From contig NZ_CP120737.1 in assembly GCF_029581195.1 (NCBI RefSeq), positions 5,309,001 to 5,373,000 of the forward strand: DNA of 64,000 bases, in the 5' to 3' direction. A program made the position numbers and the translations under genes. The stretch comes from Solwaraspora sp. WMMD791 (lineage in GTDB: Bacteria > Actinomycetota > Actinomycetes > Mycobacteriales > Micromonosporaceae). Below the pieces are notes generated by a model that was not told where the DNA came from, did no database searches, and saw only the letters and a program-made list of their open reading frames with translations. Positions 16,637 through 26,795 of the stretch are shown here, piece by piece (within the stretch, counting starts at the first letter, position 1; each line of letters starts with the position of its first letter).

Positions 16637-16984
16637 ATGGTGACATCGACGCGGGACAAATCATGGTGGGGCAGCATAGTGGATGAACCAGACCCAAACA
16701 CTCGCGTACAGGTCGTGGAGTTGCGCAGTGGTCGAGAGATCAGCTGGAGCGACGGGCTGACGGAGCGGCTGGGTGAGCGCGTCGACGATGTGCGTACGGC
16801 CGTTGTCGACGGAGTTCGGGCCGTAGCGGAGAGCCTGCCGGACATGGCTTCGGTCGACGGCTGGAAGCTGGCCGAGGTTTCCGCCACCTTTGGTGTCGCA
16901 CTCGTCGCCGAGGCGGGCGTCGTGCTGAGCAAGGCGTCGGCCGAGGCGACGTTCGAGGTGACCGTCACTTTCCAGCGCGCCTGA
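16637..16984 (+). CDS. Trypsin-co-occurring domain 1 (Trypco1/CU044_2847-type) protein
   Basis: A 115-residue protein matching, from memory, the Trypco1 (CU044_2847) family. It shows the usual layout: an N-terminal strand pair (VQVVELRSGREISWS), a central amphipathic helix (ERVDDVRTAVVDGVRAVAES), and the C-terminal hallmark of this family, FGVALVAEAGVVLSKASAEA followed by TFEVTVTF. These small domains are found next to trypsin-like proteases in predicted bacterial conflict systems, where they may regulate or be cleaved by the protease. The next gene, 29 bp downstream, is such a protease, so the pairing is the expected one. The molecular role is not established. Confidence 0.83.
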   Translation: MVTSTRDKSWWGSIVDEPDPNTRVQVVELRSGREISWSDGLTERLGERVDDVRTAVVDGVRAVAESLPDMASVDGWKLAEVSATFGVALVAEAGVVLSKASAEATFEVTVTFQRA

Positions 16985-17013
16985 CGGCCGCGTACTCGAT
17001 AGCCGCGCCCCTG

Positions 17014-18018
17014 ATGACAGACGCAACCATCCTGCTGGAGCCGGGGGGACGTACGCTTGGCAGCGCATTCTTGTGCCTGCCGGGAGTCGTGGTCACTGCG
17101 GCCCACGTGCTGGGCAGCAGGCCGGCCGGCCAGATCCGGGTACGGCTTGGAAGCGATTCGGTGGCGGTGCCGGTCGAACGCCTCGAGTGTGCAGAAGAGC
17201 TTGATGTCGCCGCCCTGTGGCTGGCGGCCCCGGAGGTCCGAGCTCTGCGGGCCGGCGCAGCCGGCGTCGACACCAGGTGGATCGTGACCAGTCGGCCGGC
17301 CGACAACGACCCGCAGTTGACCGGCCGGGTTGTGGCGACGAACCGTGACATCGTCAACGGTGGCGGCGCTGTGGTGTCGATGCTGCAACTGGACGTGGAT
17401 CAGGCACTCGGCGACTACGGCGGATACTCGGGCAGCGCTGTTCGGCTGCGGGAGCGCCCCGACGTCGTGATCGGCGTGCTCTGCGAGCAGGTCCGTGCTC
17501 GACAGCGGCGTCCGGAGGGGCGGTCGGCGACCACAGTGCTCTACGCCGTCCCGATCGACGCAGCGCTTCGGCGCCTCGGCCTGCAGCTAGCACGGGACGT
17601 GCCCCACCGGTTCGCCGGGGTGCGGGAAAGGCTCGGCGAGCGCGACATGGACGGTGCCGATCGGGCGTTGGCCCGGGTGCCGGCCGATGCCCGGGACGCC
17701 GAGTACTGGTTCTGGCGTGCCCAGACCGCACGGGCTCGCGGCAACTGGCATGTCGCGGCCGCGTACCTGGATGAGGCGCTGAAGCGCGACGCGCGGCATG
17801 CGCCGAGTATCAGTGTCAAGATCTGCCAACTTCTACTGACGAACGATCCGACCGACCGGACCGCCGCAGCACGGCTGGTCGAGAAATCCCGAGGGTGGGA
17901 TCCCGATCTGGACGCTTGGACAGGTTGTGTCGAGCAGTGCGGGCTCCTGACGCCAGGGATTCGCTCAGAGACGGAACTGATCCGTCTCTGCCCCCTACCC
18001 GAGTTCGACTTGCACTGA
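17014..18018 (+). CDS. Trypsin-like serine protease with C-terminal TPR-like region
   Basis: A 334-residue protein. Residues 1-190 form a chymotrypsin-fold peptidase with a visible triad: His31 in VVTAAHV, Asp64 in EELDVAAL and Ser139 in GGYSGSAV. No signal peptide is seen, so it should act in the cytoplasm. Residues 200-320 are helical with TPR-like repeats (DGADRALARVPADARDAEYW, NWHVAAAYLDEALKRDARHA), likely for protein binding. It stands between a Trypco1 gene and a vWA gene with gaps of 29 and 10 bp, so the three form one operon. A regulated intracellular protease in a defence-like system is the favoured role. Confidence 0.85.
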   Translation: MTDATILLEPGGRTLGSAFLCLPGVVVTAAHVLGSRPAGQIRVRLGSDSVAVPVERLECAEELDVAALWLAAPEVRALRAGAAGVDTRWIVTSRPADNDPQLTGRVVATNRDIVNGGGAVVSMLQLDVDQALGDYGGYSGSAVRLRERPDVVIGVLCEQVRARQRRPEGRSATTVLYAVPIDAALRRLGLQLARDVPHRFAGVRERLGERDMDGADRALARVPADARDAEYWFWRAQTARARGNWHVAAAYLDEALKRDARHAPSISVKICQLLLTNDPTDRTAAARLVEKSRGWDPDLDAWTGCVEQCGLLTPGIRSETELIRLCPLPEFDLH

Positions 18019-18028
18019 GGAGATTCCG

Positions 18029-20254
18029 ATGTCCAGTACCGGCGAACATGGCCAACCCAAGGTTGTCATCGCCGTCTGGCCGTGCGACCGCCTGGATGAC
18101 GAGGCCGAGCGCTCCGCTGGGCACGAATCGCATCTAGAGTTGGCCGTTGAGTACGGGTGGCACATTCTCGACGAGATCACGATCCCGCTGTGTCCACTGT
18201 CTGTCCCGCATGACGGGCACCGCGCCTTGGTCGAGGCGGCGCTCAGCAGGGTTGAGGAAGTCCTGCAAGCGGGTGGTGGCCGGAGGTTGTTGCTGTTCGG
18301 ACCTCCGGAGCCGTCGAGGTTTCCCGATGGATGGCAGAATTTCCTGACGGATATATTGCTGAACTTGAATCTCGACAGAAGTCATTCCTTGATCAGGGTT
18401 CTGGAACTACTTCTGTCGCCTGATCCCAGAAGAGCCACAGGAAGCGAGGTGGATTTCCTTGTTGAGGAATTCGATGCCGAGGAGGTTGAATATGGTGGAC
18501 GGCTACAGCATGACTCGGTTGGAGTGCACACTTACAGACTCGTAGAATCATTTGATGGATGGGTAGCCGAGGCGGTTTCGGCGGGAGCGTCTGCCGTGCC
18601 CGCCGGGCACGCTTGGGGGCTGGATGACGTACCGCCACCGCTGGTGCCGGCCCGGACCGGCCCGTTGCCGCACGATGGCTTGTTCGTGCGGCGCAACAAC
18701 GCCTTCGGCACGCGGCCGACGCTGGGTATCGCGGATCTGATCGACCAGGGCGTGCTGATCGACCAGACCCGGATCCGGTTCGACGACTTCGTCGCGTCCA
18801 ACACGGATGGCATCCCGTTGCCAGGTCCGGGCAGCGCTGTCGCTGTGAGCCACGGTTCGACCGCCGTGTCCGGCCCGTTCAGGACCCACGATGACACCAC
18901 CCATCTGGTCGAGATCGCGTTGCGGGCCGGTTCGCAGGCGCCAGCGGACCAACTGGCCGGTGAGTCGACCGGCGAGCCGCTGTCCGTGAACTTCGTGTTC
19001 GCCGTCGACGTCAGTTGGTCGATGTCGGGCGAGAAGTTGGGCGACGCCATTATTGCCATCCGTGAGCTGTACGCACAGCTGCGCGACACCGACGTCCTTG
19101 GCATCATCGTCTTCAACGATCAGGCCCGTACGCTGCTGCGGGCAACTCGTAAGGATGAGCTGTCCGATGATCAACTGGGGCAGATCCTTGCTGGCATGCA
19201 CGCCGATGGCGGCACCGATCTCAACCTCGGGCTGTCGTTCGCGTTCGATGAGATCCAGCGCCACAGTGCGCTGGGTACCGTGAACTGCGTCTACCTGTTC
19301 TCTGACGGTGACCCGACCTCAGGCGAGACGAACTGGGTCACCATTCGCGCCAACGTCGCCGCCCGGGTCCGAGGCGATGTCACTCTTTCCTGCTTCGGCT
19401 TCGGCTCGGACGCGCGGGTGGCCGAGCTGCGTGCCCTCGCCGGGGTCAGCGGCGGACACTGGACCTTCGTCACGGAGGCGACCGACGTCACCTCCGTACT
19501 GTCGGAGGATCTGGCCCGGCGGGACAGCCTCGCCGCGATCAACATTCAGCTGCGGATCGACATCCCTCCGCAGACCACCGTCTGGCACATCTACGGCCAT
19601 GACCTGATCACCGATCCGGCGGGCCGGGCGGCGGTGCTGACTGAGGCTGAGTCGGCGCGGCAGCGGTCCCGTGACGAGTATCAGGTGGAGAACCTGCCCG
19701 ACCTGATCCGCGACGAGCGGGGCATCCGCATCTTTGCCCCTGACCTCGCCTACGGCGAAACGTACTGGGTTGTCGTGGAGCTGCAAGTCCCTGCCGACGC
19801 CGCCGCCGATGGCGCGTTCGGCAGGGCGACCGTTCAGTACCTCGACACCCTCGCCCGCGACAATCGCCGCGTCGAAATCGAGTTGTCGGCCGCCGGCGGG
19901 ATCCCCACAGAGACCGTCCTCACTCACGGCCTCGGGCTGCGGACCAGTGAGGTCACCTTCCTCGCTCTGGACGACCTTTACGACGACGACAAGGAGGCCG
20001 CGACGCGGCGACTCCATCAGCACGCACAGACGCTCAAGGTCGCCTTCGCCACGGTTCCGTCGCCGCAGTTTCGTGACGACGAGATCACTCTGGCCAAGCT
20101 GACGTCGCTCGCCATGAACCTGGGCACCCAGCGGACGTCATTCGAGGGGGCAGCGGTCCGGGGTGGTGCCTTCGGATACGCCGTCTACCAGATGAACCAG
20201 TTCGGCCGGGTCCGCGGCGGCTACCTCTCCCACCGCGGGGCCGCTACCCGCTGA
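18029..20254 (+). CDS. von Willebrand factor A domain protein of the protease operon
   Basis: A 741-residue cytoplasmic-looking protein. Residues 1-180 are an unrecognised domain encoded by noticeably AT-richer DNA. Residues 315-495 form a vWA domain with a full MIDAS metal site: Asp327-x-Ser329-x-Ser331 (FAVDVSWSMSG), Thr396 (GGTDLNLGL) and Asp426 (FSDGDPTSG). Residues 500-741 are beta-rich, then helical. vWA domains assemble protein complexes through the metal ion. A GGAG site (18018-18021) precedes the ATG, which is 10 bp after the protease stop. It may act as scaffold or switch for the adjacent protease. No AAA+ (MoxR) partner, the common vWA companion, is present nearby. Confidence 0.82.
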   Translation: MSSTGEHGQPKVVIAVWPCDRLDDEAERSAGHESHLELAVEYGWHILDEITIPLCPLSVPHDGHRALVEAALSRVEEVLQAGGGRRLLLFGPPEPSRFPDGWQNFLTDILLNLNLDRSHSLIRVLELLLSPDPRRATGSEVDFLVEEFDAEEVEYGGRLQHDSVGVHTYRLVESFDGWVAEAVSAGASAVPAGHAWGLDDVPPPLVPARTGPLPHDGLFVRRNNAFGTRPTLGIADLIDQGVLIDQTRIRFDDFVASNTDGIPLPGPGSAVAVSHGSTAVSGPFRTHDDTTHLVEIALRAGSQAPADQLAGESTGEPLSVNFVFAVDVSWSMSGEKLGDAIIAIRELYAQLRDTDVLGIIVFNDQARTLLRATRKDELSDDQLGQILAGMHADGGTDLNLGLSFAFDEIQRHSALGTVNCVYLFSDGDPTSGETNWVTIRANVAARVRGDVTLSCFGFGSDARVAELRALAGVSGGHWTFVTEATDVTSVLSEDLARRDSLAAINIQLRIDIPPQTTVWHIYGHDLITDPAGRAAVLTEAESARQRSRDEYQVENLPDLIRDERGIRIFAPDLAYGETYWVVVELQVPADAAADGAFGRATVQYLDTLARDNRRVEIELSAAGGIPTETVLTHGLGLRTSEVTFLALDDLYDDDKEAATRRLHQHAQTLKVAFATVPSPQFRDDEITLAKLTSLAMNLGTQRTSFEGAAVRGGAFGYAVYQMNQFGRVRGGYLSHRGAATR

Positions 20255-20309
20255 CCGAGGTGGCCGGTAGGTCTGGCCGATCGCGTTCCTCCAGCAGCAT
20301 CCAGGCCGC

Positions 20310-20703
20310 TCAGCTGTCGGTCTGCTGGTCGATCGCAGCCTCGTAGAAGGCGTCCGCGAGGGCCATGACGACGGCGCTGATGCCGGGGCCGTCGCTGAAG
20401 AAGTAGTCGGCCATGGTGTTGTGGGCTTCCTGGTTGTCGACAACCGCCTCGATGACCGCCGACTGGAAGTCCTGCGACTCCATGAACTGCTTCTTCGAGT
20501 TCACCAACGTCTGGTTGATCAGGTCTGGGCGGGTGAGCAGCCACGTCGAAGCCAACCGCTACACAGGATGAAAATGGCCAAAGGATGCCGTCGAGACGTC
20601 GCAGGATTGTGAGCGGAAGGATGACGTTCCCGTACTGGTTGGGGCGGTAGGGGCCTCGTAGCTGGTCGGCGATAGACCAGATGAAACTACCAAGGGTGCT
20701 CAC
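20310..20703 (-). pseudogene. Remnant of a type I restriction-modification locus (hsdM' / 'hsdR)
   Basis: Two pieces remain. From a GTG at 20703, the frame reads STLGSFIWSIADQLRGPYR and continues to LTILRRLDGIL, the conserved N-terminus of HsdM methyltransferase subunits. Homology stops near 20580. A second frame, 20555 to 20310 (NSKKQFMESQDFQSAVIEAV and DYFFSDGPGISAVVMAL), resembles the extreme C-terminus of an HsdR restriction subunit. The methyltransferase core, the specificity subunit and the helicase-nuclease are gone, as expected from one large internal deletion of an hsdM-S-R operon. Neither piece can be functional. The second piece is assigned with less certainty than the first. Confidence 0.66.
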
Positions 20704-20896
20704 AAGGCTCCATGCGCGGATCACTCGACGACAGATGCAGGACGCCCAGCGCAGGTCCGTGCGTGCCGTGGAGCGGGCGGCGCACAGCCTGCAGCAGCCG
20801 ATGCGTCAGCAAGCATGATCGCGCACCACGACACCCGCCGGCCATCGTGGCCCGCGTGTCGTTGCTCATCTGGTATGTCGATCCGCGTCTGCCTGG

Positions 20897-25339: not shown

Positions 25340-26795
25340 TATTCCTGTGAGGAATAATCATGGATCTTGTGTTGTGTCTGTGGGTGGTTCGGCGCGGCGT
25401 TGGTGGCGCACGCCGTTGCCCTGCCTAGGTTCTGGCTTGTCGAAGGTCAGAACTGGGAAAGGCGGGGAACGGCGTGCGTTCTGTCAGCGTATGGGCTGCT
25501 CTGCTCGGCGTCGAGCGGGCGGTGGTGGAGGACGTCGAGTTCGACGACGAAGACGCGTTGTTGGTGGTCCATGTACGGGTGCGTAGAGGGGCGCGGCGGC
25601 GGTGTCCGTACTGCGGCCGGCGGTGTCCGGGTTTCGACGCCGGTCACGGGCGGCGGCGGTGGCGGGCTCTGGATCTGGGCACGGTCAGGGCGGTCGTCGA
25701 GGCCGACGCGCCACGGGTGTCCTGCGCCGAGCACGGCGTGGTGGTCGCGGCGGTGCCGTGGGCGCGTCACAACGCCGGACACACCCGGGCGTTCGACGCC
25801 ACCGTGGCGTGGCTGGCGGTGCGCACCGCGAAATCGACGGTGTGTCAGCTGATGCGCGTCGGTTGGCGCACCGTCGGGGCGATCGTGGCCAGGGTATGGG
25901 CCGACACCGGCGAGGTCACCGACCGGTTCGCCGGGCTGCGTCGGATCGGCATCGACGAGATCGCCTACAAGAAGGGTCACCGGTACCTGACCGTCGTGGT
26001 CGACCACGACACCGGCCGACTGGTGTGGGCCGCGCCGGGCAAGGACGCCGCGACGTTGCACGCCTTCTTCGACCAGCTCGGTGAGCAGCGCGCCGCGGCC
26101 ATCACCCACGTGTCCGCCGACGGCGCCGACACGATCGCGAAGGTCGTCACCCGCCGCTGCCCGCAGGCGGTGCGGTGCGCCGACCCGTTCCACGTCGTGG
26201 CCTGGGCCACCGAAGCGCTGGACCTGGTACGCCGACAGGCGTGGAACCAGGCCGCCGGACGCGGCACCGGCCGACGCAACACCGCCCGGGGCGACGCCCG
26301 CACACTCAAGAACGCACGGTGGGCCCTGTGGAAGAACCCGGACAACCTCACCGAGGCACAGAAGGCAAAACTCGACTGGATCGCCAGGACCCAGCCCCAG
26401 CTGTACCGGGCCTGGGCCCTCAAGGAAGGCCTCCGCGCCGTGTTCGCCATGGCCAAGGACAGCCCGGCAGCGGCACTCGAAGCCCTCGACAGGTGGATCG
26501 AGTGGGCCCGCCGCAGCCGTATCGACGCCTTCGTCGAACTCCAACGCCGGATCACACGCCACCGCGACACGATCCGCGCCGCGATCGAACACCAACTGTC
26601 CAACGGACTCATCGAGTCAGTCAACGCCAAGATCCGGCTGATCACCCGGATCGCGTTCGGCTTCCACTCACCCCACGCACTGATCGCCCTCGCCATGCTC
26701 AGCCTCGGCGGCCACCGACCACAACTACCCAGATGACGATCCAGAACCGACCCACACAAACAACACAAGACCCATAATCATTCCTCACAGGAATA
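25340..26795 (+). mobile_element. ISL3-family-like insertion sequence
   Basis: A 1456-bp element bounded by imperfect inverted repeats of about 45 bp. The left end begins TATTCCTGTGAGGAATAATC, and the right end read inward begins TATTCCTGTGAGGAATGATT; both continue with a GATCTTGTGTTG-like stretch. Each end contains the internal palindrome ATTCCTGTGAGGAAT. One full-length transposase gene lies inside. The flanking octamers (ctcagcga and ccgttgga) differ, so no target duplication is seen. The element is probably intact and may be active, but an end was perhaps reshaped after insertion. Similar fused ends occur at 31860 and 57867. Confidence 0.85.
25474..26736 (+). CDS. ISL3 family transposase
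   Basis: A 420-residue transposase with a GTG start. The N-terminal zinc-binding region carries RRCPYCGRRCPGFD and SCAEHG. A helix-turn-helix-like segment follows (AKSTVCQLMRVGWRTVGAIV). The DDE catalytic core contains RRIGIDEIAYKKGHRYLTVV (first Asp), HVSADGADTIAK (second Asp) and SNGLIESVNAKIRLITRIAF (Glu). The layout, length and ending (AFGFHSPHALIALAMLSLGG) fit ISL3/IS204-type DDE transposases. The frame is complete, without a frameshift. Confidence 0.93.
   Translation: MRSVSVWAALLGVERAVVEDVEFDDEDALLVVHVRVRRGARRRCPYCGRRCPGFDAGHGRRRWRALDLGTVRAVVEADAPRVSCAEHGVVVAAVPWARHNAGHTRAFDATVAWLAVRTAKSTVCQLMRVGWRTVGAIVARVWADTGEVTDRFAGLRRIGIDEIAYKKGHRYLTVVVDHDTGRLVWAAPGKDAATLHAFFDQLGEQRAAAITHVSADGADTIAKVVTRRCPQAVRCADPFHVVAWATEALDLVRRQAWNQAAGRGTGRRNTARGDARTLKNARWALWKNPDNLTEAQKAKLDWIARTQPQLYRAWALKEGLRAVFAMAKDSPAAALEALDRWIEWARRSRIDAFVELQRRITRHRDTIRAAIEHQLSNGLIESVNAKIRLITRIAFGFHSPHALIALAMLSLGGHRPQLPR

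Follow-up and report, generated by a model that had tools for sequence, protein, structure and literature searches.

A Trypco1, trypsin-TPR and vWA operon of Solwaraspora that looks like two joined units and is tentatively read as an immune-like module

Described systems and the operon of Solwaraspora sp. WMMD791

A trypsin-like peptidase paired with Trypco1 is typical of the ternary conflict systems predicted around VMAP, MoxR and von Willebrand factor A (vWA) proteins (Kaur et al., 2020, PMC7159879), and antiviral systems that are unrelated to each other have repeatedly taken up an upstream gene together with an N-terminally fused trypsin-like protease (PMC12799240). The window analysed in this work, a stretch of 64,000 nucleotides from Solwaraspora sp. 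WMMD791 (NZ_CP120737.1, positions 5,309,001 to 5,373,000), carries a three-gene operon coding for a Trypco1 protein, a trypsin-like protease extended by a tetratricopeptide repeat (TPR) module, and a vWA protein (Table 1). The operon looks like two units joined, a TPR-vWA pair and a Trypco1-trypsin cassette, rather than a conserved three-gene system. We read it, with a probability of about 40%, as an immune-like module composed of two mobile units, in which a vWA-TPR scaffold controls a predicted cytoplasmic protease.

The operon shares with the VMAP/MoxR-vWA systems the trypsin-like peptidase, the neighbouring Trypco1, a vWA protein with a metal ion-dependent adhesion site (MIDAS) and the class of organisms, but it appears to differ in the layout around the vWA domain, and it differs in its gene order, which is Trypco1, trypsin-TPR, vWA. 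Since the defining features are missing at the locus (no VMAP-C, no adjacent MoxR gene, no succession of VMAP, MoxR and vWA), membership in this group was rejected. In the nuclease-protease cassettes of Hachiman, AVAST, and Lamassu (PMC12799240), the upstream gene encodes a metallo-β-lactamase (MBL)-type nuclease and the core is HamA, Avs1 or LmuA, whereas the upstream gene of the window operon is Trypco1 and its core consists of TPR and vWA parts. The EACC1 two-gene systems (System 4 in PMC7159879), for which MoxR-independent vWA domains are mentioned, are similar in their membrane-linked two-gene layout, actinobacterial hosts, peptidase and interchangeable domains; however, they consist of EACC1 as the first gene and a caspase-led second gene, neither of which was recognized in the window operon (no EACC1-specific model was applied).

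The three open reading frames (16637-16984, 17014-18018, and 18029-20254) lie on the plus strand and are separated by 29 and 10 bp, in agreement with the original prediction, whose assignment of the Trypco1, trypsin-TPR and vWA domains is also supported by the Pfam matches, the catalytic triad and the relatives. The Trypco1 protein reached 46.7 bits with PF19493 (curated cut-off 24.6) and the VWA match was above its cut-off, while Trypsin_2 and TPR_2 scored below theirs; the latter two assignments are nevertheless backed, because the triad is invariant and the relatives match. The triad, formerly described as intact, is conserved in all 10 rows of the protease alignment (A4, which omits L079, its copy L006, L083, and L085, as the matches in these four loci were partial, broken or marginal), and its His-Asp-Ser order is that of the trypsin-like family. 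The profile of this alignment matched DegP/HtrA chains over the His/Asp part (best E=7e-8), and a single-sequence search of the PDB with the trypsin-like protease found nothing. Likewise, the MIDAS (DxSxS, T, D) reported as complete was found to comprise D327, S329, S331, T396, and D426, all invariant in the 10 rows of the vWA alignment (A2). In the AlphaFold2 models, the predicted local distance difference test (pLDDT) was mostly <50 in the trypsin half and had block means of 78-96 over the TPR module (residues 201-330). For the protease, which had been proposed to lack a signal peptide, hydropathy gave a single marginal stretch (residues 15-33, 1.87 vs. a threshold of 1.8) in the region of the catalytic His; the same simple hydropathy scan detected no signal or transmembrane (TM) segment in the Trypco1 and vWA proteins. 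PF19493 and the matching protease were each found once in the 6.93 Mb, single-contig genome.

Separate occurrence of the TPR-vWA pair and the Trypco1-trypsin cassette

Relatives of the TPR-vWA pair were collected by scanning the genome collection with two exact peptide patterns, so relatives lacking those peptides were missed. The 77 candidate stretches came down to 13 loci, eight of which are named Streptomyces, three Lentzea, one Symploca, and one Dactylosporangium. The vWA core is 46-57% identical to these loci and to a Tolypothrix conjugative plasmid. A TPR gene lies directly upstream of the vWA gene on this plasmid and in 8 of the 13 loci (L087, L090-L094, L097, and L098), and the TPR module of the window protease shows 29-43% identity to these TPR partners. 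The pair is present on three nearly identical cyanobacterial plasmid records (one seen in full context). In the 16 loci examined, which include two that duplicate or probably duplicate others, the trypsin half had no match at E up to 0.01.

The protease used as a query against 150 family genomes matched 13 places in 11 genomes, and both halves were covered only at its own place; 11 of the places match inside the trypsin part, none past residue 223. In Dactylosporangium siamense, which belongs to the same family, Micromonosporaceae, the match was limited to the TPR half (G044:C129, residues 203-330); the vWA protein encoded there is 56% identical over residues 203-734, and the preceding gene has hydrophobic segments instead of trypsin. 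Two of the 397 genomes of the order sample, where scoring was limited to five candidates per genome, matched the protease, WMMD791 itself and G510, the latter over residues 8-200 only. The fusion of trypsin and TPR parts was observed in no genome other than WMMD791. The conserved vWA alignment begins near residue 181-212 in all relatives and the preceding parts differ between loci; residues 113-208 of the window vWA protein have pLDDT values <50.

The original prediction had taken the three genes for one conserved triad, a proposal that it tied to their co-occurrence and to the success of the Trypco1 and vWA assignments in profile searches. Both assignments held, but WMMD791 was the only genome with the exact trio. 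In relatives, the TPR-vWA pair occurs without trypsin, and Trypco1-trypsin occurs without this vWA protein. None of the other loci examined combines trypsin with this TPR-vWA pair, and a conserved three-gene triad was therefore rejected.

The second unit is widespread: Trypco1 is present in 95 of the 150 family genomes. According to tblastn, 8 of 12 other loci (L075-L077, L079-L082, and L100) have a related trypsin domain next to Trypco1 of the window type, and Pfam coordinates add L083 and L085, bringing the number to 10 of 12. The two genes are divergent in L081. The best identities to the window proteins were 58.5-61% for Trypco1 (L075, L076, and L077) and 40-45% for trypsin. In L075 the trypsin of the cassette is borne by an AAA_16/TPR_12 protein, and an AAA_5 ATPase gene is located next to the cassette in L076 and L077. 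The cassette matches the trypsin and Trypco1 pairing published for VMAP systems (PMC7159879), a source that also bears out the link between Trypco1 and trypsin-like peptidases of predicted conflict systems on which the original prediction was built; the cassette also resembles the repeatedly acquired nuclease-protease pairs (PMC12799240). One related trypsin domain (G129:C1:124050-124556, contained in L006 and L079) has one in-frame TGA, and its Trypco1 gene lies downstream, not upstream.

Most TPR partners appear to be membrane proteins. All six actinobacterial TPR partners that were scanned (L090-L093, L097, and L098) begin with three hydrophobic segments, the first of them marginal, and L087 aligns over residues 5-251 to the same membrane-segment TPR protein. 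One TM segment occurs in each of the TPR and vWA proteins of Symploca, and the three Lentzea vWA proteins, which have no TPR partner, possess a single N-terminal TM segment of their own. Neither protein of the Tolypothrix plasmid has a TM segment, and its TPR protein looks coiled-coil by eye. These predictions suggest that the TPR partner often acts as a membrane tie, with L089, L095, and Tolypothrix as exceptions.

In the model of the window vWA protein (mean pLDDT 61), strands flank the vWA domain on either side, and helices lie beyond them. At moderate confidence, this arrangement resembles ITIH1/ArnB/Sec23-like layouts; the comparison with ArnB, Catenulispora 4fx5, ITIH1, and the Sec23-24 core gave 14-18% identity and high root-mean-square deviation, so it denotes likeness of fold and makes no functional claim. 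YfbK-type vWA proteins are 27-31% identical over approximately residues 237-525 (vWF_A, VWA, and YfbK_C domains were recognized in L046), but these paralogues look lipoprotein-like by eye and are split from 11 family rows with 100/100 support in a tree. No published description of the TPR-vWA pair was found in the literature, although the supplementary data of PMC7159879, which were outside the search, may hold one.

Some neighbours of the pair were also recorded. Directly after the TPR-vWA pair of Dactylosporangium, a 1414-aa WD40 protein is encoded (L074 2128-6372, minus strand, same locus as L098), the N-terminus of which appears caspase-like by eye. The pair of the Tolypothrix plasmid comes after two genes, one for an AAA_21 ATPase and one for a coiled-coil protein (L101 5741-7683). 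A relationship to a resolvase-like neighbour of the Streptomyces loci was dropped, as profile comparison gave a probability of 5%.

Genomic setting of the operon

A DNA search in seven genomes of the genus showed that the flanks of the operon locus are conserved. Five of the six sister genomes (G034, G060, G093, G105, and G079) carry other genes between these flanks, approximately 2.7 to 21 kb in length; in the sixth, G114, the flanks are on different contigs and it was left out of the locus comparison. The insert of G079 (L111 and L112) includes bacteriophage exclusion (BREX)-type genes, with matches to PglW, PglX, and PDC-M55A/C, so the locus may serve the genus as a hotspot for defence genes. 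The insert of G093 encodes a 1,893-aa protein, and the contents of the other inserts were read by eye. This context, a variable locus occupied by BREX-type genes in a sister genome, makes a defence role plausible.

The vWA core is rare. Under strict E limits for the genus, class, and cyanobacterial samples, it was present in one of the seven genus genomes (WMMD791 itself, E 1e-30), and full-core relatives were found in 2 of the 150 family genomes, at least 2 of the 394 genomes of the class sample and at least 1 of the 339 of the cyanobacterial sample (the centre genome itself), the last two being lower bounds because of these limits and the few candidates scored per genome. The GC content at third codon positions of the three operon genes (0.77-0.79) is somewhat below that of many neighbours, some of which are equal or lower. 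The remaining rows of Table 1 give a restriction remnant and a transposase gene near the operon.

Table 1. Features of the operon and its surroundings (positions in the window)
Feature	Position	Strand	Basis
Trypco1 protein, 115 aa	16637..16984	+	PF19493 E=5.1e-12; NF041216 E=1.1e-9
Trypsin-like domain, ~residues 1-195 of the 334-aa protease; triad H31, D64, S139	17014..17598	+	Trypsin_2 E=4.8e-5, below cut-off
TPR module, ~residues 201-330 of the 334-aa protease	17614..18003	+	TPR_2 E=1.7e-4, below cut-off; TPR proteins of relatives share the same part
vWA protein, N-terminal part	18029..18634	+	No Pfam match up to E=5
vWA protein, conserved core, residues 203-741; vWA domain 323-490 (18995-19498)	18635..20254	+	VWA E=1.3e-16
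HsdM N-terminal remnant (type I restriction methyltransferase), outside the operon	20224..20724	-	PF12161 E=5.3e-10, residues 11-47; PADLOC MTase_I E=4.4e-16
ISL3-family transposase gene, downstream of the variable spot	25474-26736	+	Domain scan of neighbours

Proposed working and alternative readings

From the parts of the operon we infer a complex, including its gating, trigger, substrate and defence role, that could work as follows. The TPR module would dock the MoxR-independent vWA protein, whose MIDAS may bind a ligand, either a peptide or a protein. Most of the relatives with the pair would have their vWA protein tied to the membrane by the TPR module, while in WMMD791 the membrane part would have been swapped for a trypsin-like protease, which arrived with its companion Trypco1. 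In the resting cell, the cytoplasmic protease would be held off by Trypco1 and the TPR-vWA contact, and it would be released once the vWA protein has bound a ligand produced by an invader or by damage, or once the complexes cluster. The freed protease might cut a partner, possibly within vWA residues 113-208, by which the N-terminal domain of the vWA protein would be freed; alternatively, it might attack host proteins and cause a growth stop. The TPR-vWA pair would thus sense or scaffold, the protease would act, and Trypco1 would be the companion of the cassette, perhaps its gate. In the original prediction, Trypco1 would sense or gate, target recruitment would fall to the TPRs, and the vWA protein would switch the complex.

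It is possible, though less likely than not, that Trypco1-trypsin serves as an activator or effector cassette that can be exchanged, comparable to the recently described nuclease-protease pairs, and that it is set on a previously undescribed, apparently NTPase-free core of TPR and Sec23/ArnB-like vWA parts, where it replaces the membrane part of the core. Such an arrangement would represent an immune-like switch driven by a MIDAS ligand with no linked ATPase or GTPase. The tree mentioned above, in which 11 family rows stood against two YfbK rows (L087, L091, L093, and L095 having been missed by the motif filter), was of no use for polarizing the protease/membrane swap, as the window row was not placed. 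If the immune-like module is real, it extends the range of cores that host trypsin-like protease cassettes beyond the STAND, helicase, and MoxR systems known for this, and the small three-gene operon would let the role of Trypco1 be probed directly; what the TPR-vWA pair does with a protease could also be compared with what it does without one in the membrane-linked relatives.

Several results weigh against this immune-like module. The exact combination rests on a single genome, and the trypsin half, whose Pfam score is below the cut-off, gave no usable model. An adjacent TPR gene is absent in 5 of the 13 relatives; L089 and L095 are among those without a TPR partner, and the scanned vWA protein of L089 has no TM segment (that of L095 was unscanned), just as the TPR protein of the Tolypothrix plasmid has none. 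With PADLOC, nothing stronger than weak matches to TPR and LmuA (E 0.01-0.09) was obtained for the three operon proteins, so assignment to a known defence system was rejected. Carriage by phages was also discarded: none of the 111 pattern stretches in viral contigs was confirmed as a relative (the collection of phage records was not part of the search). Finally, the Streptomyces pair sits, as judged by eye, among ordinary chromosomal genes such as dnaK, unlike a purely defence-island gene.

The last point, namely that the copies of several Streptomyces species lie next to dnaK in comparable chromosomal surroundings, also speaks for a housekeeping role, in which the TPR-vWA pair would be a scaffold for the assembly or turnover of protein complexes and the protease would have been gained to act in local proteolysis rather than in defence. 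Complex assembly is a frequent task of vWA-TPR scaffolds, and the protease profile is closest to the DegP/HtrA quality-control proteases. This explanation is possible but not favoured, as the vWA core is patchy across the family, genus, class, and cyanobacterial samples, it is plasmid-borne in Tolypothrix, and it occupies a variable locus in WMMD791.

It is improbable that the operon is a reduced MoxR-vWA ternary conflict system, in which a distant MoxR-type ATPase serves the vWA protein and trypsin-TPR stands in for VMAP. In favour of this reading, eight AAA_3 (MoxR-core) matches were found in the genome, of which six are strong, with E values of 6e-61 or better; in Streptomyces, a MoxR-like AAA_5 gene and a DUF2201_N gene face the vWA gene (L090 11609-14472, minus strand, and by eye similarly L097), and the trypsin and Trypco1 pairing itself is typical of VMAP systems. 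However, no ATPase gene adjoins the operon: as originally predicted, no AAA+/MoxR gene is linked to it, none of the nine window neighbours scanned being AAA+ and none of the eight AAA_3 matches falling inside the window. The three operon proteins have no Pfam match to VMAP-C or other VMAP domains (E up to 1), nor do the nine neighbours to VMAP-C (E up to 0.01); a genome-wide VMAP-C search was also negative, but its controls were equally silent, so it is not evidence of absence. The vWA proteins of VMAP systems have helical extensions on both sides (PMC7159879), while beta-sandwich-like strands stand on both sides in our model.

A recent accidental fusion of trypsin and TPR parts without coordinated function, which would agree with its presence in one genome only, its lack in the sister genomes of the genus and the type I restriction debris adjoining the operon, is similarly unlikely, because the frames are open, the triad and MIDAS are intact, the genes are tightly spaced on the same strand, and the cognate Trypco1 is retained beside the trypsin domain.

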